Source of the DNA: Spinellus fusiger
Lineage: Eukaryota > Mucoromycota > Mucoromycetes > Mucorales > Phycomycetaceae
Direction: 5' to 3'
Assembly (NCBI GenBank): GCA_025094145.1
Contig: JALLLS010000094.1
Coordinates: forward strand, 1-64,000
Length of the DNA stretch: 64,000 nt
Of this stretch, positions 13,037 to 62,220 are shown piece by piece. Numbering within the stretch: the stretch's first letter is position 1; every line of letters begins with the position of its first letter. Under the pieces are notes generated by a model that saw nothing but the letters and a program-made list of their open reading frames with translations, did no database searches and was not told where the DNA came from. A program made the translations under genes and the position numbers.

Positions 13037-13072
13037 TGTGTCTGTGTCTGTGTCTGTGTCTGTGTCTGTGTT
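13037..13072. repeat. TGTGTC microsatellite (mirrored at about 27286-27321)
   Basis: Six to seven tandem copies of a TGTGTC unit, present in both arms with the same copy number by eye. Equal length at such a mutable tract supports very recent origin or homogenisation of the arms. Confidence 0.8.
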
Positions 13073-29854: not shown

Positions 29855-30130
29855 GTGATCTCAGTCTGGTCAAATCAACCTATAACTTTTCTTAGCTATT
29901 AAGTTAGTTATCTCTATTTGAACCATCACTAGTATGTTGTCTATTGGATTATACTATTGAACTATTGAACTATTAAAATTATTAAAATAAAATTATTATC
30001 AATCTATATTTGTCTGTAACAGCATTGTAAAGCCATAGATAGGATGTAACCGCTCTAGGTTTCTCATACTGGTTTCTTTTTAACAATGAACATATATGGA
30101 TTTCTCTATACTGTTTTCTTGATAAAATAC

Positions 30131-40688: not shown

Positions 40689-41340
40689 TTCTAGGTGTTA
40701 TTGAGTGTTGACTTGTTTTCTTGTTCAAGACACTTTTTATTAAGTATCTCTACGCAGTCACACGTCGCACTGAGAGGTCTGACTGAGAAAGACAGAATAG
40801 ATTACAAGGTCACTTTGCAGGAAATGAAAGAACAGACAAACAAATAAAACAAAAAGAGAAAAAAGACATCTAAACGAGCTACACACGACTATAGAATAGA
40901 AATAAAGAAAGACAGAAACACTATAGATCTACACTGGACTGTGCTATTTTCTTCTGTAGGGAGAGAAAAGAGGGGTTTTAAGAAAGGAAAACCTGGCCAA
41001 GGTGGGTCTTCCTGCCTGGCCTGTTTCTTCCTTGGGGAGGCGACAGTATCAAGGGAAGAGTGGTTTTTAATGTAGAATAGACAGTGAAAATGAAGAATGA
41101 AAGAAGAACAAGGAGATATAGATAAGAACAGTACAACAAGGCCGCTGTGCTGTGTTGTTCTTGTGGGATTGTATTCAGTGGCTGCTGATACTGCTGTAGA
41201 AAGACAATGAGTGTGTCTTTATGGGTGTTTTCTTTCTTCTTCTTTATAGATAAAGAACAACAACAGCAAAATACGCCTTTCTCACTCTCTTTTATATACA
41301 TACATTTAAGAGAGAGAAAATCATCATCATCAGCTCTCTC
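40689..41340. other. Upstream region of ELF1 up to Fanzor element A
   Basis: Promoter-side DNA of ELF1. A 107-aa minus-strand frame (40978-41301) is low-complexity and has no family resemblance, so it is not called as a gene. Confidence 0.4.
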
Positions 41341-41342
41341 TA

Positions 41343-43976
41343 CACACCAGGAGATTTTTCTGGCCTTTAAGCGATGATATCTTGCCTTTTATGGAAATAT
41401 GTTTAAAACGAAAGGTTTGTGGATATCAGAAATAATATTTCCTTTTGTGGATACCTCAATATCAAATTGTATTATCAGTAAAATATATTGTTTATGAATA
41501 AAATTGTTTATTATAATAATGTAGCTAATACTATAGTATGACTATAGCTACTACCCAAGTGCATTCCCTCATAGCAATAGAATCCACACCCTAAAATCTT
41601 TGTGCTTTATTCTTGGGAGATAGATAACTATGCTCAGGAGTATACCCTAGACAGTATAGAAGGAAGAAGACCACCTGAGACTGACTTGAGAAGAGTCTTC
41701 ACTTGCCTAATAACAATACAATGAGTGTCTTGTACATTAGAATAAGCCATAGCCCAGATGATGACACTGCTTACCTTTTTATCTCAAGAATAGCCTCTGG
41801 TAGTTTCTATCACTTCCTTCTATTGTCTCTCTTTGTTAATAATGGCACATTACCTTGCTCAGTTATGCTCATATTGAAGAGTACTCGATTGTTATACTGT
41901 GGGCTTATGGATAACACTATGTTAAACATCAAATGCAGTGATTGAGTTGCAATGTCAGGTTTACTTCTTCCTTTTATCCAACTTTATAGTGTTTAATTAC
42001 ACAGTCCATAGTCAATGTCAAGACAGATAGACAGTGAGAAGGTTCTTTTCAAACACATTAACCAACCAAAGAAATAATATGATTTCATTGTTCATATTTC
42101 CCTTTATATCCCAAAAGTATTCTGTTGCTATGAGACAAGAGACACACAGGACCTCTTAAGGCTGGTTACTCATACGGAAATTGATAAAAAAGAGAAGGGT
42201 ATGGAGTGACAGAAGGCAAACTAATGGTTGTAATAATATTAGTACCCTATGGGAATACAGAAAGAAAACAAGTCGAGAACAAGAAACAGCCAGTTGCTCA
42301 AGTCCTTAAAGCCTATCTTGTTTATACTCTAGGAAGCTGTTTGGATTCAAGTCTATTTTATTAAGAATGTAGATAATTACACTTTTTATATTAGTTTGGC
42401 ATTTCTTTCTTTGACTATGAATTTTACTATGAATTTTGCTATTTTGCTATTCTCAATTAATAGCTATGGCTTTCATAGAACATCCAAGCAGACTGGGAGG
42501 GGTAACTGTCCTATCCTACAGTGTGTATAATCTTGGTCCCGTATTTCAAGGCCATACAACTCAATAAAGTGATTTCATTGTAAATAAAGTTTATCTCTTC
42601 CCTTGAAACATACATAGGACAAGAGGAGGAAATCTATCTCTGAATTTACAGAGGTGTTATTATCGTATAGCTTTGATCCTTATAGCTTAAAAATATATAA
42701 AAGTAGCCTCAAGATCTATACTATGTAACTTTGTAAAATATATCCTTTATTCTGTAATAAAGGGCACTGTAGTTATCAACAGGGCCATTAGAGAGATAAA
42801 TGTATAGATGTTTGAGTCTCTAGCAGTGAAGACAAAATAGAGTATTAGTACAAAGGCTGGTCTAGGGAAATCAAAGAGGGTACATGAACAGGGACACAAC
42901 ACACGATTTGATCACAACGGGTAACTAGGCAACTGTTCTTTAAGGAATTCTTTTCTTTTTAAAATGTTGTTGTAGTCTGCATTACTTTGGTAGTTCTGAT
43001 TAAGCAAATGAATTGTGAAATTTAGTTTTGTTCTCTTCTGTTCGGATACTAATACATGTCAAACACACTGTCTGTTGTTCTTCATAACTTCTACCCTCTT
43101 TAACTTGTTTGTCTTTGTCTGGCATATAAACCAACAGTTGTGATCTGGTAAGTATTTGTGTATGTTTATTATGTCTTACATGTTAGTCAGTTTCTATTGT
43201 ATATTTTTTTACTATAGTAAACCCAGTGAATCCATTACAAAGGCAAGAAGGTGCCAGTGCAAGGGTAATACGACATACATAGAGAGTACATTAATACATC
43301 TCGAACTAATTATTCTTACTACTATTTTATTATTGAAAAGGGGTATTGGCACCTAAAATGATTGGGGTACGCTCCTACCAAGCTGCCAGCCATTGCCTAT
43401 GGCACAGGAATGAAAGGAAAGGATGCTGTCAAGTTCAAAGGCCATCGTGTTGGTTTGACAAGAATATTATATCAATCATTGAAAAAGAGACAAAAGAGTG
43501 GTGATCTTCTTCTGGTTGATGTCGATGAGTTCTTTACATCGAGGGTAAGCATGATTGACCTCTCACTCAATATAAAATGCTCTTTTAACAGTTACTCTGT
43601 TTTGTTTTCTTTTTTATTCTCAAGATCTGCCATACTTGCAACACAAATATCCTCACTGAGGTATTAGTGAATTTCAACACTATCCACGCTTGCCAAAGTT
43701 GCGGAATTGTTTAGAACAGAGATGTGAATGCATCAAAGGGTATCTATACAGTCACATAAGAATAGATATTCTTATTCGTATTCATATTATATATCGCCAC
43801 ATTGAAAGTGGTTTCCTATGGGATTCAGATATTTACAGGTAAATCTACATAATAATCTTTATTTAAAAAACTGACATGAATACATAATTTATTTTTGCTT
43901 TTCAACTCGACGTGTCATTTCTTAAACAATTGTAGTTTGACTATTTCCTTTTATATCCTAAAGACCTCCTGGTGTG
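41343..43976 (+). mobile_element. Fanzor-bearing transposable element, copy A (2.6 kb)
   Basis: The left end CACACCAGGAGATTTTTC and the right end (inverted: CACACCAGGAGGTCTTTAGG) form short terminal inverted repeats of about 11-18 bp. Both are flanked by TA (41341-41342 and 43977-43978), as for TA-targeting transposons. The interior up to about 42830 holds no readable gene. From about 42830 to the right end it is homologous to element B, and 43220-43759 contains a decayed Fanzor C-terminus. No transposase was recognised, so it is probably mobilised in trans or is long dead. It lies between the ELF1 start and the snurportin start, its right end about 195 bp from the latter. Confidence 0.72.
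43220..43759 (+). pseudogene. Fanzor (TnpB-like RNA-guided nuclease) C-terminal relic, copy A
   Basis: The plus-strand reading gives AYGTGMKGKDAVKFKGHRVG, then a DEFFTSR segment ending at 43544, a GT-AG intron 43545-43624, and ICHTCNT...CQSCGIV, followed by NRDVNASK. These are the Fanzor/TnpB order: DEF(R)TS motif, CxxC...CxxC zinc ribbon, and the RuvC-III aspartate in NRDVNA. Decay: the tryptophan before NRD is a TAG stop (43712-43714; TGG in copy B), R of FRTS is F, and the frame closes soon after at 43759. The N-terminal half is not recognisable. Family members cut DNA guided by an omega-RNA; this copy cannot make an active enzyme. Confidence 0.75.
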
Positions 43977-44171
43977 TAACGACTGCTGTTCTACACACAC
44001 TTCATTCCTGTCTCTTCTAATTTACAAGTCACAGAAGCAGTACAGTAGAAAGGAGCAAAGGAACAAAGAAAAAGAGTCACAGTCCCTAACCTACATGGCA
44101 CTGGCTCAGTTTCCACCTCTCCCTTTTCTTTCTTCCTCGTATTTCTTTGTCTTGACAGATTGGCTTGTATC

Positions 44172-44492
44172 ATGAGTGGTTTCTCTGGCTTTGTGTTTAA
44201 AGACCCCCACGCACCCAACCCACCTGCACCCATAAAGAAGGAGAAAGAGGACGCCATGGACTCATTATCAGAGCAGTTCCAACAGGCAGTCAGTACAGAC
44301 GATACACGAGAGAGTCATGAGTTCTTTGAGAGTCGACTTGAGACCTATCAAAAGCAGAGGACTCCACTATGTCACCGTAGTGTCGCTGAAACACAAGGCA
44401 TACGACGACAAAAGGCCCTTATGTTGCAGAAAAAGGCAAGAAAGAAAAGAATAAGAAAAGAATAAGTGAGTGTGTTTGTGTGTATGTTTTTT

Positions 44493-44542
<50 letters not shown>

Positions 44543-45674
44543 GTAGGTCAGAAATGAGAGAGTATCACAGTCAAGACTCAAGGCATTGGTGGGAATAAAA
44601 GATCCCGAAGAAGATGAGGAAGAAGAAGAGGAAGAAGAAGAACAAGTGCCTATCAACACTCACAAGAGAATGCGTGATTCGGATGATGAGCCCAAAGAAA
44701 ACAAAATCATGTGTATGGAGTATATGCCTAAAAACAAAAAGAAGAAGAAAGGATATAAGAAACCTGAACATTTCACGTAGGTCTTTTTTGCTGACTGTAG
44801 TGGGGACTTACTCTAGAGACAAAAAAAAAGAGATCTTGTCATGTATGCAGAAACAATGGAAGAGATTCCTAGTGATTTTACTATGCAATGGGTGTTTATT
44901 ATCTCTCCTGTTGGAAAGAGATGTCTTGTGACTACAGCCAAGGGTAAGTTAGTAGGGTGTGGTGAGTGGTATTGTTCCTCATCTAACGAGGGGTGGTATC
45001 TGTACAGGAGAGACGATTGTCCGTACAAGAAGTGGTAAGCAGCAGTGTTATTGTCTTTTTTTTGTTTTTAACCTGGTCCTAGGTCGTATTCTCACTCGAC
45101 TCCAGTCCAACTTACCCAGTGGCTCTCGGGACTCCAGATCCTCACCCACATCAGATTACTGTATTATGGACTGTATTTATGATGCTGATCGACACACTTA
45201 CCATGTCCTTGATATTCTCTGTTGGAAGGGCTATTCTATTGTAGACTGTGATACTGATTTTAGGTGAGAAAAGGTAGTGATGACTTGTGGCATTAACAAT
45301 AAAGACACTTTTGGCTACGCTCCATGCTGGATCCAAGTGAATTGGAAAGAACGACGACAAGAAACAGTGTTTATAAGTTCAAGGCACTCCAACCACTGTC
45401 TATGAGTGAATTGAGCCAGGTGGTCGATGGCCCTAATGCATATCTGAAGCAGGTATTAGATGAAGAGTACAAGGCAGATGGTCTATTGTTCTATCACAAG
45501 GAAACCCATTATACGCCTGGATCGACACCTCTTGTGTGTTGGGCTCCCTTGGATCGCATTGAGACACTGTTTGCCAAGGACAGTGCATTTGTAGACAGTT
45601 GCATCCATGCATCTATGAACGGTCCTGTGGTGGATGGTGCATTTGTAAATGGTGGTAGTATTGACTATGATTAG
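44172..45674 (+). CDS. Snurportin-1 (m3G-cap-binding nuclear import adaptor)
   Basis: Exons: 44172-44435, 44547-44776, 44819-44943, 45008-45034, 45083-45263, 45305-45674; 1197 nt, 398 aa. Snurportin carries capped U snRNPs into the nucleus by bridging the trimethylguanosine cap to importin beta. The N-terminal part, with basic IRRQKALMLQKK, corresponds to the importin-beta-binding region. Next comes an acidic low-complexity stretch of about 15 Glu/Asp. The cap-binding domain is clear: EIPSDFTMQWVFIISPVGKR, SDYCIMDCIYD, and further on GLLFYHKETHYTPGSTPLVC. The first intron appears to be GC-AG (donor AAG|GCAAGA at 44436); using the only nearby GT instead would require an in-frame TAA. The exon 2/3 acceptor is uncertain by 12 nt. 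An upstream frame beginning with TTG at 44160 was not used. Confidence 0.9.
44487..44540. repeat. TG dinucleotide microsatellite in snurportin intron 1
   Basis: A long (TG)n tract, with one TTTTTTTG interruption at its left, inside the proposed GC-AG intron. Confidence 0.9.
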
Positions 45675-45844
45675 AGGGTAGTATTGACTATGGTTAGAGG
45701 GTAGTATTGATGACAGTAAAGTGTATAGAAACAACATGCGATTCTTTTATTTATTTATTTATTTATTAATACTGCTGTTTGTCATTGAACAACAAACAGA
45801 ACTTATTGATCAATGTGGATGGACTCTGTCTGTATTAACACAGC
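45675..45844. other. Convergent 3' intergenic region
   Basis: 170 bp separates the stops of snurportin (+) and the cyclophilin (-). It contains a short duplication of GAGGGTAGTATTGA and a TTTA microsatellite (45747-45768). Confidence 0.6.
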
Positions 45845-46818
45845 TTAAAGTTCAACATGCTCAGCATTCTCAACAGGAAGAGCACCAGAATCAGCAATAA
45901 CAACATCTACCTTGGGCTTATCACGAGCACTGTTCATCTTCTATGAGTAAAGTTCTTTCTTTTTCTTTCTCTCTTATAGAGCTATGGAACTTACCCAGTG
46001 GGTGTGTTTTCAATCTTGGTGATGATGTCCATGCCTTCAATGACCTTGCCAAACACAACATGTCTACCATCCAACCAGTTGGTTTTGACAGTAGTAATGA
46101 AGAACTGAGATCCATTGGTATCCTTGCCAGCATTTGCCATGGAAAGAACGCCCTATAAATAACACTGTCAATTCATCATCTTATTTTTTTCTTTCTTTTT
46201 TTCTTTTTTCTTTTTTGTATCTATAAAAGAAAGTACTTACAGGTCCAGTGTGTCTCAACTTGAAGTTCTCATCAGCAAACTTCTCAGCTATTGTTTATTT
46301 TCTCGATAATGAGTCTCTCTTTCTCCATCATAGAATTCTCCTGTCTACCAGGGCCCCAGTCACTTACACTCAAAGATAGACTTTCCACCAGTACCATCAC
46401 CACGAGTAAAATCACCACCTTGGATCATAAAGGCCTTGATGACGCGGTGGAAACTAGAGCCCTTGTAACCAAAACCCTTTTCACCAGTAGCCAATGTCTT
46501 GAAGTTCTCTACTGTCTTGGGAACAGTCTATTCTCCCCTCTCTTTTATAAGTACATTTTCTCTCTCTCTCTCTTGATACGGATAGATAGATAGATAGACA
46601 TGCACTTACTCCACCATACAATCCAATCACAACACGACCCAAAGACTCATCTCCTTGCTTAATATCAAAGAAGACTATAACAAAGTAAGAGAAAAGGAGT
46701 CGCGTGTTTAGTTACCCTTGTCTGTCACCAAAGGACCCTTGGAGGCAGAGACAAATGCGGCTGTTGAGAGAACAGCAAGAAGAGCAACAAAAAGAACTCG
46801 AATATTAAAGTGGGCCAT
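45845..46818 (-). CDS. ER-resident cyclophilin (peptidyl-prolyl cis-trans isomerase, CypB-like)
   Basis: Six exons (minus): 46818-46716, 46674-46610, 46527-46368, 46287-46241, 46152-45995, 45929-45845; 618 nt, 205 aa. [20 protein letters not shown] is a signal peptide. The cyclophilin fold is complete: [37 protein letters not shown] (catalytic Arg and the FMxxQ motif), [20 protein letters not shown] and [12 protein letters not shown]. The C-terminus HVEL fits an HDEL/KDEL-like retrieval signal, so the protein is placed in the ER lumen, where it assists folding of secretory proteins and would be cyclosporin-sensitive (Trp in WLDGRH). The last acceptor (AACAG at 45930) was chosen because only it keeps the frame. 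Confidence 0.95.
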
Positions 46819-47614
46819 AATAAGAGACTTTGAAGAGTCTCTTCGTTAGAATTCACACTTTATATCTCTTCACTGAGTTTGAACTTTAATGGCCGTCTGA
46901 AATTGAAAGTCATTGAGTGTAGAAAGAAAGAGAAAAAAAAACCCTACCCCTACCCCTCTCTCTCTCTTTCTCTCTTTCAATGCATTGTAGAGATGAATTA
47001 AGAAAAAGAATGGACTCTTTTCGTTGGTTTATAAAAGAGAAGAATTGAGTGATTAACCAATAAGAAAGAATAAATAGAAAAGTTATAATAATAATAATAA
47101 TAATAAAGTGTCAATGGACTTGAGAATAGGAATCAAAGGATAAAATGGCTTAATAAAAACTATTGCACCAATAGAAGCATGGCAACAGTTGAGTATTCTC
47201 ATAGTCTGCCATCGGACTTGGTGCAATAGTAGATCATCTATCTTTATTCTTTTGTTTGTATTGATAACAGTGTGTGTGTGTGTGTGTAATCGGGAAAGGT
47301 TTTTTATCCATTGCCATGGTAACAAGTGGATGTCCTTGTGTAGCACTCTATGGGGTGGATGAGGAGTTGTCATGGAGACATAGAGATAAAAACTCACTGC
47401 ACATTTGTGATATAACTATTTTTAAAAGTCAGAGCACTAATAGGTGTTCTAGTGTCTTCAGCCCAGGCATCATCTTTAGCAGGGATAAGATTCTTATTCT
47501 CTACTGCTATGTATCTTGGAAAAGTGTATTTATTTTATAACAGAAGAAAAGAAATAGAGAAATAGAGAAATAGAGAAATAGAAGAATGGCACTTTACAAT
47601 GCCAATGACAAGGC
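46819..47614. other. Intergenic region between cyclophilin and EDE1-like genes
   Basis: Promoter of the cyclophilin on the left, 3' end of the EDE1-like gene on the right. Includes polypyrimidine/CT tracts (46950-46980), an AAT microsatellite (about 47085-47106) and a short TG tract (47270-47288). No gene seen. Confidence 0.45.
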
Positions 47615-50600
47615 TTAAAATTGATCCAGTAAGAAGTTGGTAGCCTTTTGAAGATCATTATCATATTGACGTAACGCATCTTTTGCTTGGTCCACTGTAA
47701 ATCCCATGCCTGTCAATACATTAATAGAGTCACTCTCTTTTGCTGGTAGAGTGGAGTCAGAAGAGGCTATAGTGACATGTTCATGCTTTTCATCAGATGA
47801 AAAAGAAGAGGCTTCCTCCTTGGGAGAGATGGCATCAGACAGAGGAGAACGACTAGCCCCCACATATCCCAGAGACGTGTGTGTTGTAGTGGTAGCAGAA
47901 GCAGAAGCAGAAATAGCTAGTTCATTGGTGTTGGCTGTTGTATCAGACACATTAGGAAGGCTATTCTCATTGACAGGTAGAGCCTCCAGAGTATCTACAC
48001 CTCCATGGTACTGAGATGTCTCTGAAATGGTAGTGTTGGAGTTCATACTCTCCCTAGACTTTCCTAAGAATATGGAGTTGTCTGCAGTTTTCATAGCACT
48101 GGATTCGGTAGCAGTAGTCAGTACACTTGCTGGATCATTTGTCACTACAGAAGACATAAAGTCAAACTCATCTACGGAGTCAGAGTGGGAAGGGGCTTCT
48201 CCCATACTTGCAGAGGCAAAGGAAGAAGCAATAGAAGCATTGTCTACTACTTCAAAATCATGTTCTGTGGTGGACGGGCTGGGACCTATTTTGTTCAGTG
48301 GAGAGTGGAGAGTCGTCTGTGAGGTAGTCTGTGGTGTGGAGGGCGGGAGGAGGGTTGGGTAGCCATACTCTTCTAGAGATATGTCCCTGTAGGCTTCTTT
48401 GTACTCTTGTTCAGAAGAAGCAGGTAGCTTTGTTACTAGACTTGTTTCTTTGGCTTCCTCAAAGGAAGTCTCTGGAGGTGGCTGTACATTAGACATAGAG
48501 GGATGGCTATGATTCTCCACCAGGGTGTTGATTTGAAATGTAGACAGCGAATCTATATCTTGTGTTTGAATCTCGTTCTCTTTTGTAGGCTGTTCAGAAA
48601 GACGGTGGGCGTCTTTGGTAGAGACATCTTCTTTCTCTGTCTCTACTGAAGGCTCTGACACCTCTGCCTGTTTATTATGTTGGTGTATCTCTACATCTGT
48701 ACTTGGATCTTCTTCGTTTGGATCCTTCCCTACCGATTCACTCTCTGGATCAGTGATAGGTGCCGTGATAGGTGTATGAGCTGATACACTATCTTCCTGT
48801 TCAAGAGGAGAAGCGTCTGATGATTCACTCGACATTGCTGTTTCCGTGGAAGCCTCCTGTTCTTGTGTATGAGAAATATCCATTGTATTCTCCTTTACAA
48901 TATCAATAGAATCTTGCTTCAAGGGCTCTCTATTTACACTCTCCAGAAGAATACTCTTGTGCTCATTTACACTCTCTTCATAGGTTGGTAATACATGAAT
49001 GGCTTGTTGTTTATCCAATGTACTATTCTCTGACTTCTTTAAAGTGTCTTCCAATTCCAATCCTTCTGCAGCCATGAGTGTTGTGTCTTGGGAAGATCGA
49101 GTATTTATTCTCTCTACTTTCTGTGCTCCATTCTCTGTTGATTCAGATACATTAAGATCTCTGCTATCTTGTGTTATGGCAGACAAAGTGTCTGTAGTGG
49201 CCTTGAAGGAGACATCTTCTTGCTGTTCTTTACTATCTTTCTCCAATAGAACAAAAGGTGTAGATGCCACTAGGGCGGTCGTTACTGATGCGATAGAGGT
49301 TGATGCTACATCAGGTTCAGACAGACTCTGGGTTGCAGAGAAAGAAGATCCATCTGATGCCAAGAATATGTCATTTACTATTGAACCAGGAGAACCTTTC
49401 TTCTTCATGACTACAGCAGGAGGAGCTGGTGGTTTTTTCTTTGATCCTTGTGCTTTGGGTGAAGTGTCCAATGCACTTTGAGTACGATGGAGGCGGCTTT
49501 TAGGAGGAGGAGGTGGTGGTGGTGACAATGCCTTTTGAGGTGAGGCCATGGCTATACATCCAAGTATATATAGATATATAAAAAGGAGGAGTCAGTGGTA
49601 TTTATAGAGTCTCTTTACCTTTCTTCTCTTGAAGACGTGTGGGCTCCTGTACAAATGCCGACTGTGCTTTAAGGGCCTCATGTGTTTCTGTGACTGTAGC
49701 CAAGTGTTTCTGGGCTGCCCTTGTCTTGCCGTCTTGCTGGTCTTGGGCCTGTAAGATGCGTTGGATTTCTGCCTTGAGTCTTGAACAGTCTTTTTCCAAA
49801 GTATCGATACGTCTTAATGCTGTCTTTTCCTGTTCTTGTGCCTCTATTAATGCTTCTTCTGCTTGCGTCTTTTGGTACTGGAGGTGTTCAAATGCTGTCT
49901 TTGTGGATTGTTCTCTTTTCAGAAGCTCGGTTGTGCGCGTCCTTGTCTCTTCCAACAATGTTTCCACTGCCACTGGAGATGTCTTTTGACTGAATCTACT
50001 GTCTGATGCTGGTGATAATGGCGATCCTTTTGTTTTTCTACCTACATAGAGAGAGAGAGAGAGAGAGGTATATCAGTCACTGTGGTTGTCTTTATAAGAA
50101 GATACTCTTACTTCTTTCCAATGCGTCAATGGAGGCCGTCAGTGATTCTGGTAGTAAAGATGGAACAGCACAGCCACCCTCACACACTTTTGCAATATGA
50201 GCAGCAATAATGAATTCTTTGAATGACAAGTAGCCTTTGTTCTGAGTGTCTGCTAAATCCCATATCAAGGCAAGCTGTGTATCTGACAGACTGGAATTCT
50301 TAAAGTAGTGAGCCACTTCATTCCCTAGAGAGTGGAATGAGATGATGTAATAAGAGTGTTATTCTATCATTATTACCACTCAAGTATCCATTATACTGTG
50401 TATCCATAGCATCAAAAAGTGATTTATAATAGAGCTCTTCTTCAGCATCTATGCTCCATGTTACAGATGCTCCTACAGATGCTCCCACAGATGCCTGTTG
50501 AATCGATGGCTTTGGAATAGGAGGAGCACGCTCTCTTCTCTTGGGGGGAGGAGGCTTGTTTTGGGCCAATGCAGCAATAGTAAAAGGAATAGCGTCTGGC

Positions 50601-51379
50601 AATTGCTGCAATCCTTCCATACAGCGTTCAATGTAGTGCATTGCAAGGATGAATTCAGTTTTGGTCATCTCATTCGATCTATTCTTATGCACCAATTGCC
50701 TAAGGAGGACGTTAGACGCTAGCCTATGACTCTCACTACAATGGTAGCTACCCTATGGCCTCAATTGTCTCTTCTGGTAGCTTAGAACGCATAAACACTG
50801 GCCTAACTTTATCCATTGAGATGGTCTTTCTTTCTGGCTCAAGAGCTGAAAAGATATGCAGGTATTTACTGCGTTCTTCGAGTGTCATGCTATCCTGAAC
50901 CAAAGGCAAGTGAGATGTAGGACGCAGCATAGGCAGTGGTATATCTGTAGGATGTGGAAGATATGGAGGAGGAGGAAGAGGAGGACTATATCAGAGATTC
51001 TTCTTATGGTTGAATAACAACTAACTTGATGAAAGCACCTCTAAAGAAGGAGACAGGCCCTTTTGTGCACAGGCAATAAGTTTAAGAGCAATACTAAATC
51101 CTCGTCTATCTAATCCACCGAGATTCTTTTCATCTGCAATATCCCATATCTATTCAAAACCCTGTTGATAAGCTGTCTTTTACTCTAGTAGAGTGTACTA
51201 TGGTAGGCTAGTCTTGCCTGTGCAAGTGTCTCGGGAGGCAGATTAGACTGGGCAAAAAGAGACGCTGCCTGCTGTCCTGTCACTGTCACTGTATCGGTGC
51301 TTGTGACATGGAATAGTTCGGCGGCCTCTTCAATATCTTTGGAGCTTAGTCCTGGGTGGAAGGCAGTAGAGTGACTCAT
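47615..51379 (-). CDS. EDE1: EH-domain endocytic scaffold, Ede1/Eps15-type
   Basis: A multi-exon gene starting at ATG 51379 (MSHSTAFHPGLSSKDIEEAA). Three EH domains come first: one in exons around 51379-51000 (LPPETLAQ | IWDIADEKNLGG), the second around 50930-50600 (LPEETIEAIGQLVHKNRSNE), the third around 50450-50100 (LIWDLADTQNKGYLSFKEF). They are followed by a coiled-coil exon (about 49990-49605), a long Ser/Thr/Glu-rich region and a C-terminal UBA domain (TGMGFTVDQAKDALRQY). The final exon is 47615 to about 49551. This is the domain order of yeast Ede1, which recruits adaptors at early endocytic sites through NPF motifs and ubiquitin; total length is roughly 1100 aa. Intron 1 appears to be GC-AG (CAG|GCAAGA, 51217). 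The junction near 51000 is uncertain. Confidence 0.88.
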
Positions 51380-52274
51380 GAGAAATACGAAGGAAACCCA
51401 CTGTCCACTCACGGGTGCCACCAATAGCCCGCAATGCTGGTATTTAAATAATAATAATAATAATAATAGGATCTGCGTCATGGCATTCTTACCTTGAATA
51501 GTACCAATATAAAGTATAGGCTTGTGTGGAATCCTGTCATGGTAACCAGTGGACATGAGTTCTGTATAATAACAGTGTCTGTGTAGTCTGCTATCTTCAA
51601 CTTTCAGTCGCTTCTGCTTGTTGTATTGCTGCTTATTTGCACGTGTACCTATGTGAGGGCACAGGCACCTTCTCTGATTGACCGTAATAAGACTGGGTAA
51701 ATAGACAAGTGTGGACAATGTATTCTGATGCTGTTTAGTCTTCTGGGGCTACTGTGGAAGGCGTCTCGTGTAGGAGAAAGACTGAGTCCTTATGTTTCTC
51801 TTGCCTGTATTATTATGGGAGTGACCATTATGATTTCATAATGTAGTAGATACCACACAGTAAAGAGTGGATAACGATGTTGTTGATGTTAATGTTGTTG
51901 GTGTTGGCGTGAGTGTTGTTGATATTATGTATAAAAGTGTATAAAAGTATAGACAAGAGAGAATAGAGACAGTAGAAGCATTTCTTTGATAGTAATAGGT
52001 ATATTTCTCTGTTTCTTATCCAAGAGTAGATAACTATTGATATACACATCTTCCTCTGCCAAGATCCCTTTACTGTACCTCTTCTCTTATAGATATATAA
52101 ATATACAATCTCACTCACTCACTCACTCACTCACTCACTCACTAATATAGCTCGGAATATACAATACTTCTATTCATCAGTAGTAAGTAGCCATGGTAGG
52201 ACACTTCATAGTCTAGCAGTAATAATGCAATAAAGTAGTTTAGGATTCAATAAAAGGTAGATGACTTCTTCTTC
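51380..52274. other. Intergenic region with ACTC microsatellite
   Basis: Upstream of the EDE1-like gene and downstream of the carrier gene. An (ACTC)n tract of 8 units lies at about 52110-52143. ORFs here are shadows or low complexity; no gene seen. Confidence 0.5.
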
Positions 52275-54380
52275 TTATGCCTTGGGTGGGCATGGTGTGC
52301 CTGGAATATAAGGACACTGTGGATACACTCCAAATCGATAGTCCAGATCCAACAGTAACTTGAGTCCATTTCTTACACGCAATGCACTTGTACTCTCCTC
52401 TGTCCATTGTCCAGCAGGCTGAGCATGTGTACTGCCAGGAAGAGGAATCCATTGGTGAAGAAGCTCATACACCGTCAGAGTCACACCAAACTGGGGAGAA
52501 GATCGGAGGATACGTGCAGGTCCGCCCTTGAAGAAGGCCTTGAATCCTTCTTCTGCCCATATCTTACGTGCAGCATCTGTAATTCCAGAGTAGGATGTCT
52601 GTCCCTTGCGTGCTTCCACCTGGAGACGTGTCTTGATGACATCAGCAGGGGTGGTGAAGTAAGCAGCAGGCATACCAGCAATAGCACCAGAAACAAGAAG
52701 CTCGCCAATCGTCAGCTTGTGTTCAGGGCCTTCGTGGAAAATGTCTTTTTTGAGGTGGGCATAGGCTGGGAAATAGATGGCTGAGAAAGGAACATCCCGC
52801 AATAAACAAGCACTGACGCCCTTGTACAGTCCCACGATACCGAGTTGCTTTACAATCCAAATGGCAGAACGACGGGGCATATCAAGATTCTTTGCTTGTT
52901 CACCTTGGATTTGTAGACGAATCTTGACAATCTCAAGAGGATTCGTAAATACAACCTGGGAGGCACCAGCAACACCACCACCGACCATTTCTTGCCACAG
53001 TTGGATTTCACCCGTGTCTTTATTCGAGAATTTGCTTCTTACAAAGTCATTCATGGTAAGTTTAATGGCTTTTTCAGGGGCAACACCCTATGCAATAACA
53101 ATGCACAATGATCAGTGCACAACTGTTAGTGTGTGTAGATAGATGCGTAGTAAATCCTGTGATTTTCTTGTCCTGCTTACCACTAACTGGGGTCCTAATC
53201 CACGGTAAAGACCAGTAAATCCTTCATTCTTGATGACCTTTCGGAAACAGTCCAGACTATTCTTGTACAAAAGTTCTCCTACTACTTTGGAGCGCTGGTT
53301 TTGCATGCGCGTCTTGACCAGATCAATAGGATAGACAGCAGTGGCTCCCACAGCACCAGCAATCGATCCCAAGGCAAAAGCATACCCATTCTCCACCAAT
53401 CCCCACAGGAACCCACTCTTCTTCTTGTCATTGGCTGTCTGTCCATCGAGGGCCTGAGGAATGGTCTTGGCCACTTGCCAGCGAGGATCAAATATCTTTG
53501 AGAAATCGTCAAAGGTCAATCTACCCGAGGCATTGTCCACACCGGCAAAATGGAAGATAATGTCTGCTTCCATAGGAGTAAATGTAGTGTAGCGACTGGT
53601 ATGGGCTGCCTTGTTCAAGAAGTCTGACTTTGTGATGCTCTTTTCTGAGCTATCATCAATCGCACGCTTCACAATCAGCTCCACCATATCAATGTTACGA
53701 ATGACATTATGAAACGCCACCACATTAGCAAAACTGACATTGGTGCCTGCATACAAGTTACAGAGAGTGGGCAAATGGTCAATCACATGATCCGATAGCT
53801 TGTGTTTGGCAATGTCATGGATAATCTTTTTAAAGTCTTCAGGTGTAATATAGCCAGTCTGCTTCATGTCGTAGTGCTTGAATTCCTGTCGAAGTCTCTC
53901 CCCTTGGAGTCCCTTGAGCAGTTGTGTGAATTCCTCATATACCAGCTCATGGTGTCCTTCCTTATTCCCCACATACAGCTTGAGCCAGTCACAGTCAAAG
54001 TCAAAGGGAATCGTGTCGTCGGGAAGATGGGTAGATAACACGGATTTGAACTGGTCAAAGGTGATTTTGCCAGTGCCATTCACGTCAAACACGCGAAAAG
54101 CCACTTCATACTCTGCATCTGGCTTGCTGAGAAGGTTCTGCAGGACTACAAAGTCGTTGAAGGAGATGGCACCACGCTTGGAGGCGTCGGCAATTTTGTA
54201 GAGCAGCCCAAACTGCTCTTTTTGGATCTTCTTAAAGTCTTCTCCTGGACAGACAGCAGCAAGAAAGTCATCTAGGGACATATACCGACCTCCTTCCTTC
54301 TCAATAGAAGCGTGCTGATGGAACATCTTTCTGTAGTACTCAGTCATACTAAGACCGGCAGATTCGTCCGAGAGAGTCAT
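52275..54380 (-). CDS. AGC1: Mitochondrial aspartate/glutamate carrier with EF-hand domain (Aralar/citrin type)
   Basis: Two exons (minus): 54380-53181 and 53087-52275; 2013 nt, 670 aa, against 678 for human Aralar1. The N-terminal half has EF-hand-like repeats (for example [17 protein letters not shown]) and the linker seen in calcium-regulated carriers. The C-terminal half has three solute-carrier repeats with their signatures: [10 protein letters not shown] (about residue 351), [10 protein letters not shown] (about 450) and [10 protein letters not shown] (about 547). The family exchanges matrix aspartate for cytosolic glutamate plus a proton in the malate-aspartate shuttle, across the inner mitochondrial membrane. 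A GTG-initiated upstream extension was not accepted. The presence of loop residues DxNGTG suggests that calcium sensing is retained, unlike in budding yeast Agc1. Confidence 0.94.
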
Positions 54381-55007
54381 AACAGAGAAGAACAAGGGGG
54401 AAGACTGGAAGGAAGGAAGAAGAAGAGCGGTCGCCACCCCTCAGGAAGAAGAGAGATCACTATATATAGACAACAACTAAATAAAGATGAAGTAGAGTCC
54501 GATCTACACTCAGATCTCGTCTCTTCTTGATTTGCTGTTTCCATGTGGGGTGCATCCAAGAGCAGTGGACAAAAAGGCGTTTATTTTAAACTCGATAGAA
54601 AAAAATAAACATGTGGAGAAGTCACGTGAAAAGAGGTTCATTTCTTATCTTGTTTACTCTTTCTTGTTTTTATTTTCTCTGTTATCTACACTCTCTAGTA
54701 GAGAATCTTATAAGGAAGGATCAGTACAAATGACATGACTCACCCGTCCACAAATAAAACCCCGCTATCCTCAGGGCTATGTTGCTATGGTGATGCCTAT
54801 AAAAGAAAGAATTAAGAAGTCATACAAAGCCATACAAAGCCATACGAAGGAACTGCTCTTCTAGTCCTGTTTTTTTTATTAAAAAAAATAGATAGATAAA
54901 TATATAAATATAAATAAATATAAATATAAATATAAATATAAATATAAATATAAATATAAATATAAAAGAAAAAGAAAAAGATACACAGATAAAGTTCATT
55001 TATTGTA
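54381..55007. other. Intergenic region with AAATAT repeat
   Basis: Promoter side of the carrier gene, then the 3' side of TAF8. It contains three CATACAAAGC/CATACGAAGG-like copies (54815-54850) and a tandem AAATAT hexanucleotide array at about 54897-54965. No gene seen. Confidence 0.55.
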
Positions 55008-56042
55008 CTATTGGACAGGCCCTATACTGGTACGAGGATCCTTCGATGCCTCCATCCCATCGGAATAGCGCTTTAATGGCAGTGTAGGAGGAGCTTCTCT
55101 TGAGTAATTTGTTCTAAAATCCGAGAACCCCGACTGTTTTGCTCTTGTTCTTCTCTGTAATGAATTTTCATAATTCACCAATGGCATCATAGCAGTGGCA
55201 TTGGATGCAGCTGTTTTACTGCCTTGGTGATGTCCATGTTGTTCAGCCGACATGAATCGCTTCAGATTTTCCTCGACTGTGCGTGATTGTTGGGAATTAA
55301 GAGCACGCACCTTTTGAGGATCATCGGGACGTTGTATATAGACCTAATGAGAACATAGACAAGACAGTGAATACAAAGAGATAGATAAATAGATAAACAG
55401 ATGGAAAAGGCATTTACAGGCGTCTGTCGAAAAGAATGTTTACTGGGGAAGCGTGGTAGATTAGGGGGCACATAGAAAGGCAAGTCATGACCAGACGTGT
55501 TTTTCTTATCAGTCATAAAATCATCCTCATCCTCATCCTCAGAAGGAAGAAAGTGAAGGGTATGGTCGACGCTCTGTGATAAGGATCTTTCTGTGCGTAG
55601 GATACGTTTGGCAGGTCTCACTAACTATCAGTAAAGGAGCAACTTGAGAGTGTGTACCTAGTGTATTGTCTGTCTTTGTTTTCTCCAAATACACTTCTAA
55701 TTGGTGCATCGTCAGACCCGAATGTTTGAAGGATTCCTCAATGTCATGGTAATTAGGTTTTATTCGATTGCCGAGTTCTGCATAGGTGTGGGATGTATGG
55801 AACAACCTTTCAAGATCTACCTATCAGGGACTGAATCTGACCAAAACAAAGGACTTACATGTGCCCATGAGGTCAGAGAGTGTGTCGAGTGCAGACCTTT
55901 GTATAGAGTGGAAGCCAGCCTCTTTTGCTAGTAGAGACACTAACTTATTATTAGCACTACTGACGAATTCTGCTTCTGTTAAGTCTATGGATTGTGTGTT
56001 TCTAGATTCATTCTCTAGGCTGTGGGTGTTTGTAGCGTTCAT
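55008..56042 (-). CDS. TAF8: TFIID subunit TAF8 homologue
   Basis: Four exons (minus): 56042-55859, 55816-55658, 55620-55418, 55343-55008; 882 nt, 293 aa. The N-terminal histone-fold domain covers about residues 15-90 (AEFVSSANNKLVSLLAKEAG ... LDTLSDLMGTYLERLFH). The TAF8-specific C-terminal motif is clear in LPFYVPPNLPRFPSKHSFRQ, followed by TPVY. The rest is basic and Ser-rich. TAF8 pairs with TAF10 and is part of TFIID, acting in RNA polymerase II pre-initiation complexes. The exon 1/2 acceptor GTAG at 55817 was selected because it alone preserves the frame. The upstream TTG frame start was not used. Fanzor element B begins about 105 bp upstream of the start codon, so it lies in the promoter region. 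Confidence 0.9.
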
Positions 56043-56146
56043 GAGAGACAATGCGTCAACAGTGTTAAGGATTTCAGTGTTACTGTAGAGTCACATGACA
56101 TTGGCTTGTAATGTACCAAGGGTTATTGGTGATGGATTGCGAATTA

Positions 56147-57524
56147 CACACCAGGAGATCTTTAGGATATAAAAGGAAATAGTCAAACTACAATTGTTTA
56201 AAAATAACACATTGATTTGAAAAGGAGCAAAAATAAGTTAAGATGTATTCATGTTATTTTTTAAACAAATAATTTTGTAGATTTACCTGTAAATATCTGA
56301 ATCCAGAAGGAAACCACTTTCGATGTGATGATGTATAATATGATATAATATGAATATCTATTCTTTTCTACAAAATAGAGCTATTTGGAGGCGACCATTG
56401 AAAGCCTCTTCTGCAATTGTATAGATATTCTTTGATGCATTCACATCTCTGTTCCAAACAATTCCGCAACTTTGGCAAGTGTGGATACTGTTGAAATTTA
56501 CTAATACTTCGGTGAGGTTATGTGTCCTACAAGTGTGGCAGATCTTGAAAAGAAAAAGAAAAGAAAAGAAAGTAACTGTTAGAAGAGCCTTTCATATTGG
56601 TTGAGAGGTCAATCATGTTTACCTTTGATGTTCGGAACTCATCGACATCAACTAGAAGATCTCCATCTTTTGGTCTCTTTTTTCAATGATTGATATAGAA
56701 TTCTTGGCAAACCAACACAATGACCTTTAAACTTGACAGCATCTTTTCCTTTCATTCCTGTGCCATAAGCAACGACTGGCAGTTTGGTAGGACCATACTC
56801 CAATCCTTTTAGGTGCCAATACCCCTTTACAATAATAAAATAATAGTAAAAATATTTACTTCGAGATGTATCAACGTAATCTAGGTGTGTCGTATTACTC
56901 TTGCACTGGCACCTTCTTCCTGCCTTTGCCTTTTTAACGGATTCACTGGGTTTATTAAAATAAAAGAATATACAATAGAAACTGACCAATATGTAAGACA
57001 TAATAAACATACACAAACACTCACCATATCATAACTGTTGGTTTATATGCCAGATAAAGGCAAACAAGTTAAAGAGAATAGAAGTTATGAAGAACAACAG
57101 ACAGTGCAATTAGCAGGTATTAATATTCGAGCAGAAGAGAACAAATCGAATTTTCACAAGTCACTTGCTTAATCAGAACTACCAAAGTAATGCAGACTAC
57201 AACAACATTTTAGAAAGAAAAGAATTCCTTAAAGAACAGTTGCCTAGTTACCAGTTGTGATCAAATCGTGTGTTGTGTCCCTGTTCATGTATCCTCTTTG
57301 ATTTCCCTAGACCAGCCTTTGTACTAATACTCTATTTCTTTGTCCCTGATAGAGACCAAACTACTACAGATCCATCTCTCTAGTGGTATTGTTGATAACC
57401 TTAGTACTCTTTATTACAGATACTTGCAAACCTTTGATTTTTAAATACAGTTCCATAAAAGGCAAAAATGGACGTAAAAGGAAGGAGATATCCCCGCCTA
57501 AAAGCCAGAAAAAATCCTGGCGTG
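56147..57524 (-). mobile_element. Fanzor-bearing transposable element, copy B (1.4 kb)
   Basis: The ends are CACACCAGGAGATCTTTAGG (56147, plus strand) and, at the other side, TCCTGGCGTG (57515-57524). Both are flanked by TA (56145-56146 and 57525-57526). It is homologous, in opposite orientation, to element A. The 3' part (56147 to about 57345) matches A 42830-43976 throughout, while only about 180 bp remain at the 5' end, where AAAGCCAGAAAAAATCCTGG corresponds to A's left terminus. B therefore looks like an internally deleted derivative, or A carries extra DNA. It is inserted between TAF8 and the SWI3-like gene. Confidence 0.72.
56358..57016 (-). pseudogene. Fanzor C-terminal relic, copy B (better preserved)
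   Basis: Minus-strand exon 1 (ending 56623) encodes YGPTKLPVVAYGTGMKGKDA, then after a single-base frameshift in a run of A the segment DGDLLVDVDEFRTSK. After the intron (56622-56544), exon 56543-56358 encodes ICHTC, then CQSCGIVWNRDVNASKNIYT, then AEEAFNGRL and a stop. DEFRTSK, the CxxC...CxxC zinc ribbon and WNRDVNA with the RuvC-III aspartate are all intact here. The frameshift and the missing N-terminal half make it non-functional. It is a Fanzor rather than a bacterial TnpB by its eukaryotic intron and context. Confidence 0.78.
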
Positions 57525-57526
57525 TA

Positions 57527-57657
57527 AGGTCTGTCATTTACACTGTAATTTACACTATCATTTACACTATCATTTATATTTCAACCCGCTCTGCTTATAA
57601 TACTATTGCAATGGAATTTATTCACTACAAAGAGAAGAAATATAAATGATAATCAAA
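57527..57657. other. Short gap between element B and SWI3-like gene
   Basis: A small tandem duplication, TTTACACTATCA (57551-57575), is present. It would hold the 3' UTR of the SWI3-like gene. Confidence 0.5.
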
Positions 57658-59440
57658 TTACAAGGATAAAATAGATGGCTGTTCATGGGAATCATCACTC
57701 GTCTCCTGCCTGGAGTGAGAGAAACTCTTCTCAGTCAGTCCATGCAAATCAGTCAGTCTATAATGCTCTTTTATCAGATGTGTGTTCATAAACTGTTGTA
57801 GCTGTGCTTGTGTCAATCCGGAATCCACAGCTGCCTCCACACCTCCCTTCTTTTCTATCTCATGCTGCAACAAGGCCGAGGTTCTCTTCACCGCAAGACG
57901 CTGAACAAAAATATCATGTCTTTGCTGCACCACTTGTTCCAATTCACACTCTAATACAGCCTCCAGTTCTTCAAAATGTGTCATTTTCAGTTCCAACTTC
58001 TTAATTTGTGTGTCCACCACAGCATGAACAAGACGACGTATTTCACGCTCCTCCATCTTGGCTAATGAATCTGCCTTGGCGGCGGCAGACCCCAATGCCA
58101 CAGCAGCTGCCTTTTCTATGGATGTTTTTGCTTTTTTAGTTTCCTTGCCTTTGTCCGATAATGTACGCTTAGAGGGGGTGATGATGTGCTCCTGGCACTC
58201 GATGGCTGCTTCAGCGGCTGCCGTCGCCACCTGAGGATCGACAGCAGAAGCAAGAAAGGCAAGAATAGACATGACTGGATTGTCTGCCTGTGAAAAGGGT
58301 GTTCTTTGGTGTTCAATGGTAGTGGAAGAAGGAAGAGAAGATCGGTAGGGCTCTTCAATGGGCATCTGTAGAAAGTGCATAATGCACTGTTCTCGTGTAC
58401 GAGTAATAACATGTTCAGCAATAGCACTCCAGTCATCATCAAACATCTCTATGGCCTCCAACAGCAGCAGTGTTTCTTGATCAGTCCAGGGTGTGTCGTG
58501 AGGATGTTGGAAGGCAGACAGCTGTGTTTTGATAAAATCAATGCTAATAAGACTGGTAGGGAAGCGGCCGTCTTTGTAGCAGAGAGGACATAAATCCATG
58601 TTCTTTGCTCGAAGACAGTGGTACCTTTCTCTTGTACACTCCACTCCACATGTAGTGCAATAAAATGGCTTGCTCTTTTCTTCATTGACAGTATCAAATA
58701 ACTGCTGTCTTAGTTTGACGTTCATTCCAATATCATCCACAGCATCTGTCTCTGATTTAGTTACTGTGGGTTTAATACTGGGACGGAAGGGTTGGAGTCC
58801 TCGTGGTGTGTCTGCTGTGACTCTAAAGTGGCCTGTGAAGGGAGGTCCTACTGCAGAAGGCCATGTAACAGGCTCACACTACTTAGTGTTAATGGAGAAA
58901 GGCCCTCTCATCTATAGGTTAAGAACCCACCTCATGGTTGATCAGTCCCCACTGTTCTAGAAAGGCATGCACTCTCATAATAGCACACACATCGCCTGCC
59001 AAGTTGCGTCGGCAGGCTGTCACTGTCAAGTATTCTTTTGAGTTCAGGCGGTAAGTGTTCACCATAAAATCACGGTAGTCATGGTAAATAGTGGTTGTTT
59101 TTGATTTGTTTCTTCCTGTAAAGAACTCTGGTAATGAGACACGCTCAACATTATGAATAGTCTCCATGTTGAACCATGCTGCATAGACAGGGACTTTGGT
59201 AGGTTGTGTCTGATCCAACAGATATTTCCGTGCTTCCTCTTCCATCTTAGTGCGTGCTTCTGCTGCTGCTGCTTCAGACTGAGCATCCATGCCTTGTTTA
59301 TCAACTATCTTTTCATCGAGGGGTGAGTTGGGAATGAATTCTTTGGCTTGTTTCATATCAGTGTCTTGTGATTCTATCAGCATGGGTGTAGTATCCATGG
59401 TGCTTATGGGTTTGTCGCGTTTTTCACTAGAGTCACTCAT
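57658..59440 (-). CDS. SWI3/RSC8-type chromatin-remodelling subunit (SWIRM, ZZ, SANT)
   Basis: Two exons (minus): 59440-58931 and 58878-57658; 1731 nt, 576 aa. The domains in order are: SWIRM, about 83-168 ([20 protein letters not shown] ... [20 protein letters not shown]); the family linker [20 protein letters not shown]; a ZZ-type zinc finger at about 242-280 with CTTC, CPLC pairs; SANT at about 299-347 ([20 protein letters not shown]); and an Ala/Glu-rich C-terminal coiled coil. These subunits scaffold SWI/SNF and RSC remodellers. The length is near yeast Rsc8 (557 aa) and well below Swi3, so an RSC8-like role, or one subunit shared by both complexes, is more likely. The start is the ATG at 59440. 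Confidence 0.93.
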
Positions 59441-60414
59441 AGTCAATGGAGGGTGCTGATCTAACAGAAAGTAGGGAAGAACCTCGTCCGTTCGTTATTT
59501 ACACCACAGATGACGTAAAGAAAAGCTATGGCCACCCTTCTTCAAACAAGTCACATGATAAAGAAAGAGGTAGATCCTTTTTTTCTTTTTCTTTTTCTTT
59601 TTTTTCAGTTGCAAAAGCCTTGATGGGTTTACTGATGCTATTCAAAGGATCTCCTATTGGTTGGGCTGATAAAATCTGTTGAATTCATTTGTACTCGGTA
59701 ATTATGTCAATAGAAGATGCTTTTTATCTATGGACCTGTGCTCTAATAAGTGCAGGCACTGTGTAGCTTATCATTGCACAGAGAAGAAAAAAGAAGAAAT
59801 AAAAGATGTAGAGTTTTGTCTCCTCTCGCCATGGTTCTACGCTCTAAGAGTAGCAATTGTAATTGTAATTAAGGTATATCTTACTCTATAAAGACATCAA
59901 TAGCATACGGAAATTACACCAAGACTCAACTTGTTTAAAGCCTAAAACAGAACAGAACATTAAATAAAACATATGTATTTTCTTTGTATAGTCTTTGTAC
60001 CTGAATTTTGCTGGGTGTCTTGCTCTTTGGAGTTCCTTCAAATTATCAACATAGTTTTGATTTTGATTTTCAGGTGGATTAGAGTTTAAGGGAAAAGCAG
60101 TTGGAATTTAAGAGGACATTAAAATGCACTCGTGGTTTTGTATGCATTTTTATTGATTCACACAAGTGAATAAGTAGTAAGGCTATAAAGTGAAATGGGT
60201 TGCATCTAAGAAATAGTAGTAAAGATAATGGTAATATAGAAAGAGATTCTTTATCAAACATAATACAAGTGCATTTTATACTATTGAAAAGACTGGATAG
60301 ACTAGTTTTCATGACCCAATGTCTTGGTAGTGATCTGGTAATTTCTTATTATTTTATTATTTCTTGTTTCTTATTTTCTATTGATTCTTCCTTTTATTAT
60401 GATTATTGTTGCTG
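59441..60414. other. Upstream region of the SWI3-like gene, no gene seen
   Basis: A 78-aa plus-strand frame begins 6 bases from the SWI3-like start codon and contains a polypyrimidine tract. It cannot be separated from the promoter and is not called. From 59700 on the sequence is AT-rich without signals. Confidence 0.4.
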
Positions 60415-60620
60415 TTGTTGCTGTTACTGTTATTATTGTTATTATTGTTATTATTGTTATTATTGTTATTATTGTTATTATTGTTATTATTGTTATTATT
60501 GTTATTATTGTTATTATTGTTATTATTGTTATTATTGTTATTATTGTTATTATTGTTATTATTGTTATTATTGTTATTATTGTTATTATTATTGTTACTG
60601 TTATTATTGTTACTGTTGAC
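60415..60620. repeat. 9-bp tandem repeat TTATTATTG
   Basis: About 18-19 nearly perfect copies of TTATTATTG, with imperfect GTTGCTGTTACTG units at both edges. It is open in most frames and generates poly-Leu, Ile-Val and Tyr-Cys frames that are not genes. Confidence 0.95.
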
Positions 60621-62220
60621 TTATTCAACTGTCTACTGTTTTCTTATAGAAATTCATGATATAAGCAGGAAGAAAGAGAAAAAGGGGGACTATAATAAAG
60701 AAAGACAACACAGCGACGACATTTGTTCAACCCAAAATGCAAACGATTTCCTTAGAATTCAACCCATTGCAATACAGACTGGTGATGATATAGCATCCAT
60801 GTTGTAGCATGTATTACACATACACACATATATATTTATATTTATACATTAATATATATTTATACACAAGAGAGGGAAATAGTGACAGAGAGTAGAGTGA
60901 GCAAGTGCATCTTAAAATAAACTATCCTGTGTGAGGCCTCTTCATGTGTCTAAAATGATAGTCACAGATATAAATTCATAGGAAATTAAGGGCCATGGAT
61001 TGAATTCCCCTTGCTGGTAGCTCTCATAAGGAGGCTGTTCTGTTTCTTCTGCTGCTACTTATAAATATTTGTGACTGACTACTAATAGGAGTATTTGTTA
61101 TCAAGACAGATAAATGCAAGTAGTGAACGTGTAACCAAGAAGAAAGAGAGCAAATGAGTTCAATCTGTCAACCCATCGAACAAATAAGGGAGGGATAGGT
61201 TGCAGTGCCGCTGAGAATAGAACCTGTAGACCATCAGAAAGGTGCATACCAGGAAGTATGAAAGGGCAGTGACTTTCTAAAAATAAAAATACAGCCTATT
61301 GCTATGGATCAGTAGAAATGGCAAATAAAACAGCTTAAAAAAGAGGATTTATAAAATAAATAAATAAAAAAGGGGGAAATAATAAAGAATAAAAAGAACA
61401 TAGCAACACCCAGCCTTGTTATTAATGTTATTATGAAGATGGCTTAGTGAAGCACTCCACATCACCAGGGACACTTTGCACTTCTGATGTGCCTTGGGTG
61501 GCACAAAAGTCTCAGTTGTTATGTGCTCCGGTCTATCTATAAATACAAATGCACTTTTCTAACCATCAGCCCAGAAAGAAAAAGAAGAGTAACAGACATC
61601 ATTCAATTGAGCTAAAGTCATAGAAACAGTATTTGCTCATCTTTTTAATAGAATAAAAAAGTAAAAACTCATAAAAAGAGAAAGGAAAAAGCGTAAAGCA
61701 ATGTCGATCCTTGTTCTTCCTATACTTCCTACTCTGTTTTATTCTTCTTGGCCAATCGGATCAGGGCACAGGTCCCCTTTTTATTCTTTCATCTTATTGT
61801 GTCCAGTCAGTGTGATTGAGTCAATAGACAGACAACATCAGCATAACACTATTCATATATGTATGTGTTTATCTGTGTATTTATATGTAGTGATGTATAT
61901 ATATGTACCCTTGTACCCTTGTATCTCTGTACCTCTGTACCTCTGTACTTTTATAAATTTATACCTATCTATGTATCTATAGTCTCTGAAAAGTATATGT
62001 GCTCCAAGACTCCACTGACTTACCTACTATAGATAACGCCTTATTTCTTTTGTATATAAAAATATCAATTTTATACTCTATTTTCCTGCTCTTTCTGTTT
62101 TTCTTACTCTTTTTTTCTTTACTGATTTTTCTTGGCGCGTTATCTGCAACTATTGTTAGCATCTTACAGATATATAAAACATAAAGTCTTCATCCTATTT
62201 GTCTCTATTGATTGCCTGCT
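60621..62220. other. Gene-poor region
   Basis: No gene recognised. A low-complexity tract of CTTGTACC / CTCTGTAC units lies at about 61910-61945. A 93-aa frame at 61701-61982 runs through it and is not supported. Confidence 0.4.

Follow-up and report, generated by a model that had tools for sequence, protein, structure and literature searches.

The first 64,000 bases of a contig of the fungus Spinellus fusiger (JALLLS010000094.1, labelled C192 in a genome of 38.08 Mb in 197 contigs), hereafter the window, contain two related transposable elements, A and B, each holding the tail of a decayed gene for Fanzor, the eukaryotic TnpB-like RNA-guided nuclease. We propose, with a probability of about 0.7, that A and B are copies of a large, non-autonomous family of DNA transposons with terminal inverted repeats (TIRs) that insert at TA, that this family descends from a Fanzor-bearing element and was moved in trans, and that the C found before TA on the left side of its copies would be a footprint of the target-adjacent motif (TAM) of the lost nuclease.

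Element A with its flanking TAs occupies 41341..43978 on the forward strand, with 2634 bp between the TAs. The left TA (41341-41342) is followed at 41343 by CACACCAGGAG, and the element ends in CTCCTGGTGTG at 43976, ahead of the right TA (43977-43978). Its left end (41343..41369, outer flank CTCTA) is of a type that we call LE (CACACCAGGAGATTTTTCTGGCC...), and its right end (43939..43976, reverse strand), reading inward CACACCAGGAGGTCTTTAGGATATAAAAGG..., is of the type RE2. Element B is opposite in orientation and with its TAs covers 56145..57526 on the reverse strand: its ends lie at 56147 and 57524, 1378 bp separate the TAs at 56145-56146 and 57525-57526, and one of its ends has two mismatches (ATCCTGGCGTG). 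The left end of B is at 57494..57524 (reverse strand, outer flank CCTTA). The prediction of two related, TA-flanked elements with short inverted termini at these places is confirmed at base resolution. Longer copies of 3.2-3.4 kb (L061, L063, L064, L065) exist, relative to which A lacks internal sequence, and A is therefore an internal-deletion derivative. In B, the first ~110 bp (LE) of the long form are fused to its last ~1.25 kb.

The gene relic reads YWHLK...DEF[FR]TS[RK] / ICHTC...CQSCGIV[W]NRDVNA in two exons around a GT...AG intron. In A, the first of these exons (43344..43544, forward strand, ending in DEFFTSR and followed by GTAAGC) was delimited from the sequence and from its joint match with the next exon to PF07282; the last exon (43625..43759, forward strand) encodes the zinc ribbon CxxC...CxxC and NRD, and ends in TAA. 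In B, the exon with DEFRTSK (56623..56821, reverse strand) precedes GTAAAC, and the last exon, with CxxC...CxxC and W-NRDVNA (56358..56543, reverse strand), is open to a stop. The DEF[FR]TS, CxxC...CxxC and NRDVNA motifs, noticed earlier from the letters of the sequence, are thus present in the last two exons of both elements. With the two exons joined and X placed at the breaks, PF07282 (Cas12f1-like TNB) scored 47.7 bits for A and 52.2 bits for B against a cut-off of 26.3, which bears out the identification of a Fanzor-type C-terminus. The last exon of B alone reached 34 bits in the genome search, and a copy on contig C117 reached 37.4. Of 457 candidate places genome-wide 150 were scored, and 147 of them lay above the cut-off, two only with their in-frame neighbours. 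Weak matches of TnpB or Cas12 type were also obtained in NCBIfam and in the PDB (PDB best E 0.005). The published Fanzor pattern (PMC10711439) places an alternative Glu (Ealt) six residues ahead of the zinc finger. Its C-terminal part, tested as ExxxxxxCxxCx(12,18)CxxCx(4,8)D with stops counted as any residue, matched A (through its stop), B and 22 of the 50 readable copies among 61; when one such segment was shuffled 200,000 times, no match arose. This match identifies the relic as Fanzor-type and not an ordinary TnpB; the region with the other half of the pattern, which contains DPG, is missing. On contigs C1, C2, C8 and C9, 11 PF07282 matches were listed; an exact family end is no more than 2.0 kb from ten of these and 18.5 kb from the other. 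Of random positions on C1, 13% lie within 2.1 kb of such an end. The original prediction of a transposon with Fanzor as cargo therefore stands as to the origin of the gene; "cargo" overstates it, since only a relic of ~110 residues remains.

The family is large. The end 13-mer TACACACCAGGAG has 1016 exact matches genome-wide (507 forward and 509 reverse), and its reversed control has 1+0. The 3' part of A recurs in at least 39 further places at 86-98% identity and in one partial at 76% (40 scored of 589 candidates), and its 5' part in at least 108 matching pieces (40 scored of 1672 candidates). The first 30 end matches all lie on contig C1; of the 30 loci cut out there, 29 matched A. Both-ended RE2 elements measure 876 to 3417 bp. 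The end shared in the family is 11-13 bp long, and over their last 0.9 kb the copies differ from one another by a median of 10%. High copy number, common ends, several size classes and the lack of a transposase in the copies read are features of miniature inverted-repeat transposable elements (MITEs). Nearly all deletion classes seen retain the last ~360 bp, which cover the last exon, with several junctions (3014, 3024, 3060); in the copies judged by eye, every RE2 block except those of L037 and L076 begins at or upstream of position 3060 of the long copy.

Other arrangements of the ends were seen as well. A second type of right end, RE1 (CACACCAGGAGATTTTTGGGATATATAAGG...), closes elements without a Fanzor tail (L048, L042, L035, L049/L050; L070 3300-3583), and the long form holds an RE1-like internal stretch near 1300-1580, as if fused from two elements. 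At L023 2440-3400 two elements stand ~10 bp apart, and at L061 1-120 and C1:1360288-1361732 outer ends lie ~100 bp beyond the inner ones.

The flanks agree with insertion at TA. All 23 RE2 elements read at both ends are flanked by TA on both sides; for 8 of them, picked via a 13-mer containing TA, the TA at one of the two ends was given by the choice. For 31 elements we joined the flanks and searched for the empty site, and matches spanning the junction were found for two. The better of these, L069, is nested in an older family member, and in all seven printed rows (of 16 spanning) the alignment, at 65-68% identity, runs through without a gap when one TA is taken out; the paralogs have diverged and have lost the TA at this place. 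This supports a 2-bp (TA) duplication on insertion, and no more than that. The earlier claim that the family targets TA is supported, with this one nested insertion as the empty-site comparison.

The frame of the relic was already dead when much of the family was amplified. The codon preceding NRD is TAG in 30, TGG in 27 and TAT in one of the 58 readable rows of 61 (L051 and L052 being one element), which excludes that the TAG of A (43712-43714) is damage private to that copy; a dead Fanzor subfamily was amplified, and A inherited its stop. It had been predicted that the two copies differ in their damage, with TAG in A and a frameshift in B. Both lesions are real, the latter being one extra A in a run of A; as to what they say of the copies, A has a second stop (TGA at 43359-43361), TAG is shared as above, and the homopolymer behind the frameshift of B, 6 A long in that copy, ranges from 3 to 7 A and has 6 in 12 of 47 readable copies. 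Exon variants private to one copy comprise 18 synonymous, 61 missense and 2 nonsense changes (18/81 synonymous; neutral expectation 26.5%). Variants found in at least four copies show a synonymous excess (35 synonymous, 48 missense, 2 nonsense; 35/85, p=0.002, in a test that takes variants as independent, which related copies are not). This excess suggests that the source lineage was probably once under coding constraint, a conclusion supported more weakly than the others; the present copies are not. Both exons are open in 7 of 50 copies, and 28 of the 50 readable copies fail the Fanzor pattern, mostly because a Cys of the zinc finger or the Glu is lost. That the C-terminal fragment might be a mini-protein maintained by selection would accord with the synonymous excess in widely shared variants and with the seven open copies; the neutral private changes, the stop ahead of the catalytic Asp in 30 of 58 copies and the 28 copies that have lost the pattern make it very improbable. 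Over the last 0.9 kb of the copies, departures from the majority base are mainly C:G to T:A, highest at CpG (0.127) and 0.068-0.083 in other contexts, and A:T to G:C changes run at 0.028-0.040.

The original prediction also held that a full-length, intact relative probably exists elsewhere in the genome, and this is unsupported so far. Nor does the differing damage of A and B point to an intact copy nearby; the main stop was inherited within a subfamily that was amplified. We fetched 85 loci, listed the frames of 19 family loci (L061-L069, L076-L085) and judged them by eye, and compared the remaining fetched family loci only by BLAST with the long copy L064. In the 19 loci no N-terminal Fanzor part and no RuvC-I with DPG were seen, only last exons. 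Two genome searches used TnpB profiles that are longer or N-terminal: with NF038280 all 41 matches are confined to positions 337-401 of the 431 in the profile, and PF01385 gave zero matches. A protein-database search with a padded C-terminus query returned 48 candidates, none at E<=0.01. By eye, the long TIR-to-TIR spans and the fetched high-scoring PF07282 loci held no full-length Fanzor, the latter being of the same truncated kind, and codon-phase signals, judged by eye in long copies, showed nothing consistent outside the Fanzor exons. A 4.05-kb TIR span on contig C4 turned out to be two separate small elements flanking another gene. These searches do not prove the absence of a full-length Fanzor, as Fanzor1 N-termini diverge, the exons were searched apart and most copies were not read. 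A full-length gene of the family could thus have been missed because its exons are short and its N-terminus diverges from the profiles, and the probable past constraint on the source copies speaks for this, as does the extent of the sampling (19 frame-listed loci among 85 fetched, 150 of 457 PF07282 candidates scored). With the profile matches confined to the C-terminus or lacking and the high-scoring loci truncated alike, we regard such a gene as rather unlikely.

The copies carry a one-sided motif in their flanks. Flanks were collected with exact end patterns (100 listed of 225 genome-wide for the left end, 100 of 118 for RE2, and 100 of 110 for a Tc1/mariner family whose transposase frame is open, used as a control from the same genome), and 2 left and 3 right duplicates were dropped; the patterns demanded a non-G at the far flank end, which leaves the counted position unaffected. 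C precedes TA in 72 of the 98 distinct left flanks listed, with T before that in 56, and in 42 of the 97 distinct right flanks. In the control family, whose 100 listed flanks still include duplicates and pool both ends, C was found in 3, A in 62 and G in 28. In the RE2 elements read at both ends, C stands on the left in 21 of 23 and on the right in 5 of 23 (discordant 16:0, p=3e-5). Over every end in the fetched set, C is found at 31 of 38 left ends, 20 of 60 RE2 ends and 4 of 12 RE1 ends. A looser left-end pattern (C in 64 of 99) was discarded for mixing in RE1-type right ends, and a right-end pattern derived from L070 had only one genome match. The TAM adjoins the left end of such elements. 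We consider it about an even bet that the left-sided C-TA is a footprint of the TAM of the lost Fanzor. Known Fanzor TAMs include CATA (SpuFz1), TTAAN, CCG and TAG (PMC10432273). SpuFz1 is, we infer, the protein of SPu-1, a Fanzor1 element of Spizellomyces punctatus, for which the entry in PMC3627910 gives putative TA duplications as flanks.

A number of observations weigh against this interpretation or against the wider account of the family. C before TA is in excess over the window background (18.8%) at the right ends too, where it stands in 42 of 97 flanks, although in only 5 of 23 paired elements, so that part of the C preference may be two-sided and belong to the transposase; copy B, with T in place of the usual C before its left TA, likewise indicates some transposase preference. 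The left-sided C-TA could then be wholly a target preference of a transposase that holds the two ends asymmetrically, with Fanzor irrelevant to the survival of copies. We put this explanation only a little below even odds: a transposase with a target preference can by itself enrich flanks, both ends show the excess of C (the right end less so), and the four both-ended RE1 elements, which have no Fanzor tail, show C on the left in three and on the right in two; set against this are the nearly one-sided bias of the paired RE2 elements and the control family, which avoids C, though another transposase may differ. A second difficulty is the mover. No cognate transposase was found: the three Tc1/mariner families read, whose transposase frames are open, do not have the ends of this family, and the only DDE gene found beside a family end (DDE_3, in L070), tried as the mover, belongs to another repeat. 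A third is the 164-bp element at L076 144-311, the smallest member seen, which has TA on both sides and is made of short, inverted right-end pieces only; the Fanzor tail thus seems unneeded for movement. Variants shared by two or three copies (13 synonymous, 41 missense, 3 nonsense; 13/57) moreover show no constraint. Finally, with regard to a guide RNA (omega-RNA), the last 200 nt ahead of the right end fold no better than shuffles, and in a hairpin over the last exon the changes are nearly all one-sided, with an unfavourable covariation term (+1.4).

DDE_3 matches as such are abundant (at least 205 in the genome, with 150 scored of 1544 candidates). The three Tc1/mariner families (L071, L072, L073) have open frames of 440, 492 and 450 aa that are 42-48% alike, and show TA and ends of their own; 440-aa frames of the L071 family are numerous in the genome list. 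The statement that the elements have no recognisable transposase of their own holds in the copies read, and we infer that the mover is a Tc1/mariner-type transposase acting in trans.

The hairpin bears on what has kept the right end. The segment over the last exon and its stop folds better than shuffles (windows to z -4.5; ten copies at z -1.7 to -7.1), by a measure based on mononucleotide shuffles, which flatter a structure. Across 57 aligned copies 2004 of 2047 cells pair; two-sided change occurs at two neighbouring pairs, in one copy each, and Rfam gave zero matches in 41000-58000. That nearly all deletion classes seen keep the last ~360 bp fits an RNA gene, but also a simple shared history. 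It is conceivable that the copies were kept as sources of omega-RNA, the retained 3' end of Fanzor encoding a guide-RNA scaffold and an intact Fanzor acting in trans on hundreds of guides. The reach of the RE2 blocks, the TAM-like left-sided C-TA and the stability of the hairpin would fit; an intact Fanzor was not found by the NF038280 and PF01385 genome searches, two-sided changes are almost absent and the 200 nt nearest the right end are unstructured, and we hold this account to be doubtful. In a fuller form, the family would consist of genome-wide, guide-RNA-bearing riders that lost the nuclease and kept an RNA gene at the right end, while a Fanzor in trans cut hundreds of empty sites by CTA and so fixed insertions 3' of CTA, leaving the TAM in the flanks; to judge from sequence, this too seems a poor bet.

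Under the reading that we prefer, that of a Fanzor-derived family moved in trans, the ancestor would have carried a spliced Fanzor gene, and internal deletions would have spared only its last exons and the right end. The derivatives, dead frame included, would then have been amplified in trans by a transposase of the Tc1/mariner type. By cutting empty sites, the lost Fanzor, its RNA guide presumably placed beyond the right end, may have given an advantage to copies that inserted 3' of CTA. The main new point, and the part worth following, is the insertion motif: the landing sites may still record the short motif of a lost enzyme, and hundreds of insertions, with the right end as an internal control and a Tc1/mariner family of the same genome as another, allow a statistical test of the influence of Fanzor on the survival of copies. 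The predicted TAM, CTA, can be checked by an ordinary cleavage assay.

Elsewhere in the window, 10208-17492 and 22866-30148 form a 7,285-bp inverted repeat of 99.945% identity, with single end-like 13-mers (CACACACCAGGAG) lacking TA at 13749 and 26609, one in each arm. Several PF07282 and DDE_3 matches elsewhere in the genome also occur in mirrored pairs, so that it may contain many large palindromes or assembly hairpins. A long low-complexity tract at 60403-60807 translates to poly-Leu or poly-Val/Ile depending on the frame.

MITE-like derivatives of Tc1/mariner elements are short and non-autonomous, with TIRs, TA flanks, hundreds of copies and several size classes. The present family differs from them in that its internal remnant is the tail of a gene for an RNA-guided nuclease, and in its one-sided insertion motif. 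Among TA-flanked Fanzor elements, a known class, it is a new member that is non-autonomous and has been heavily amplified; our literature search found no description of it, and we make no wider claim. Several relatives described in PMC3627910 can be compared. The Mariner-linked Fanzor1 elements PUl-4 and PGv-1 have TA duplications and a Fanzor with or without a transposase (PMC3627910); they either have the TIRs of confirmed Mariner elements or code for a transposase of that type, whereas no transposase was found with the ends of the present family. In the Fanzor1 Helitron families CRe-1/2/3, many copies are likewise internally or 5'-deleted with the 3' end kept, but these are Helitrons, with other ends and other target sites (PMC3627910). 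A further likeness is to the Fanzor1 element SPu-1 (Bao and Jurka, 2013, PMC3627910), from Spizellomyces punctatus, which has TIRs and a putative TA duplication, and for which the description gives no transposase and Fanzor as the sole protein. The 633-aa Fanzor of SPu-1 is complete and lies in one frame, the TIRs of the element measure 33 bp and 17 of its copies are full-length (PMC3627910), whereas the present family combines a last-exon relic and a shared end of 11-13 bp with hundreds of copies.

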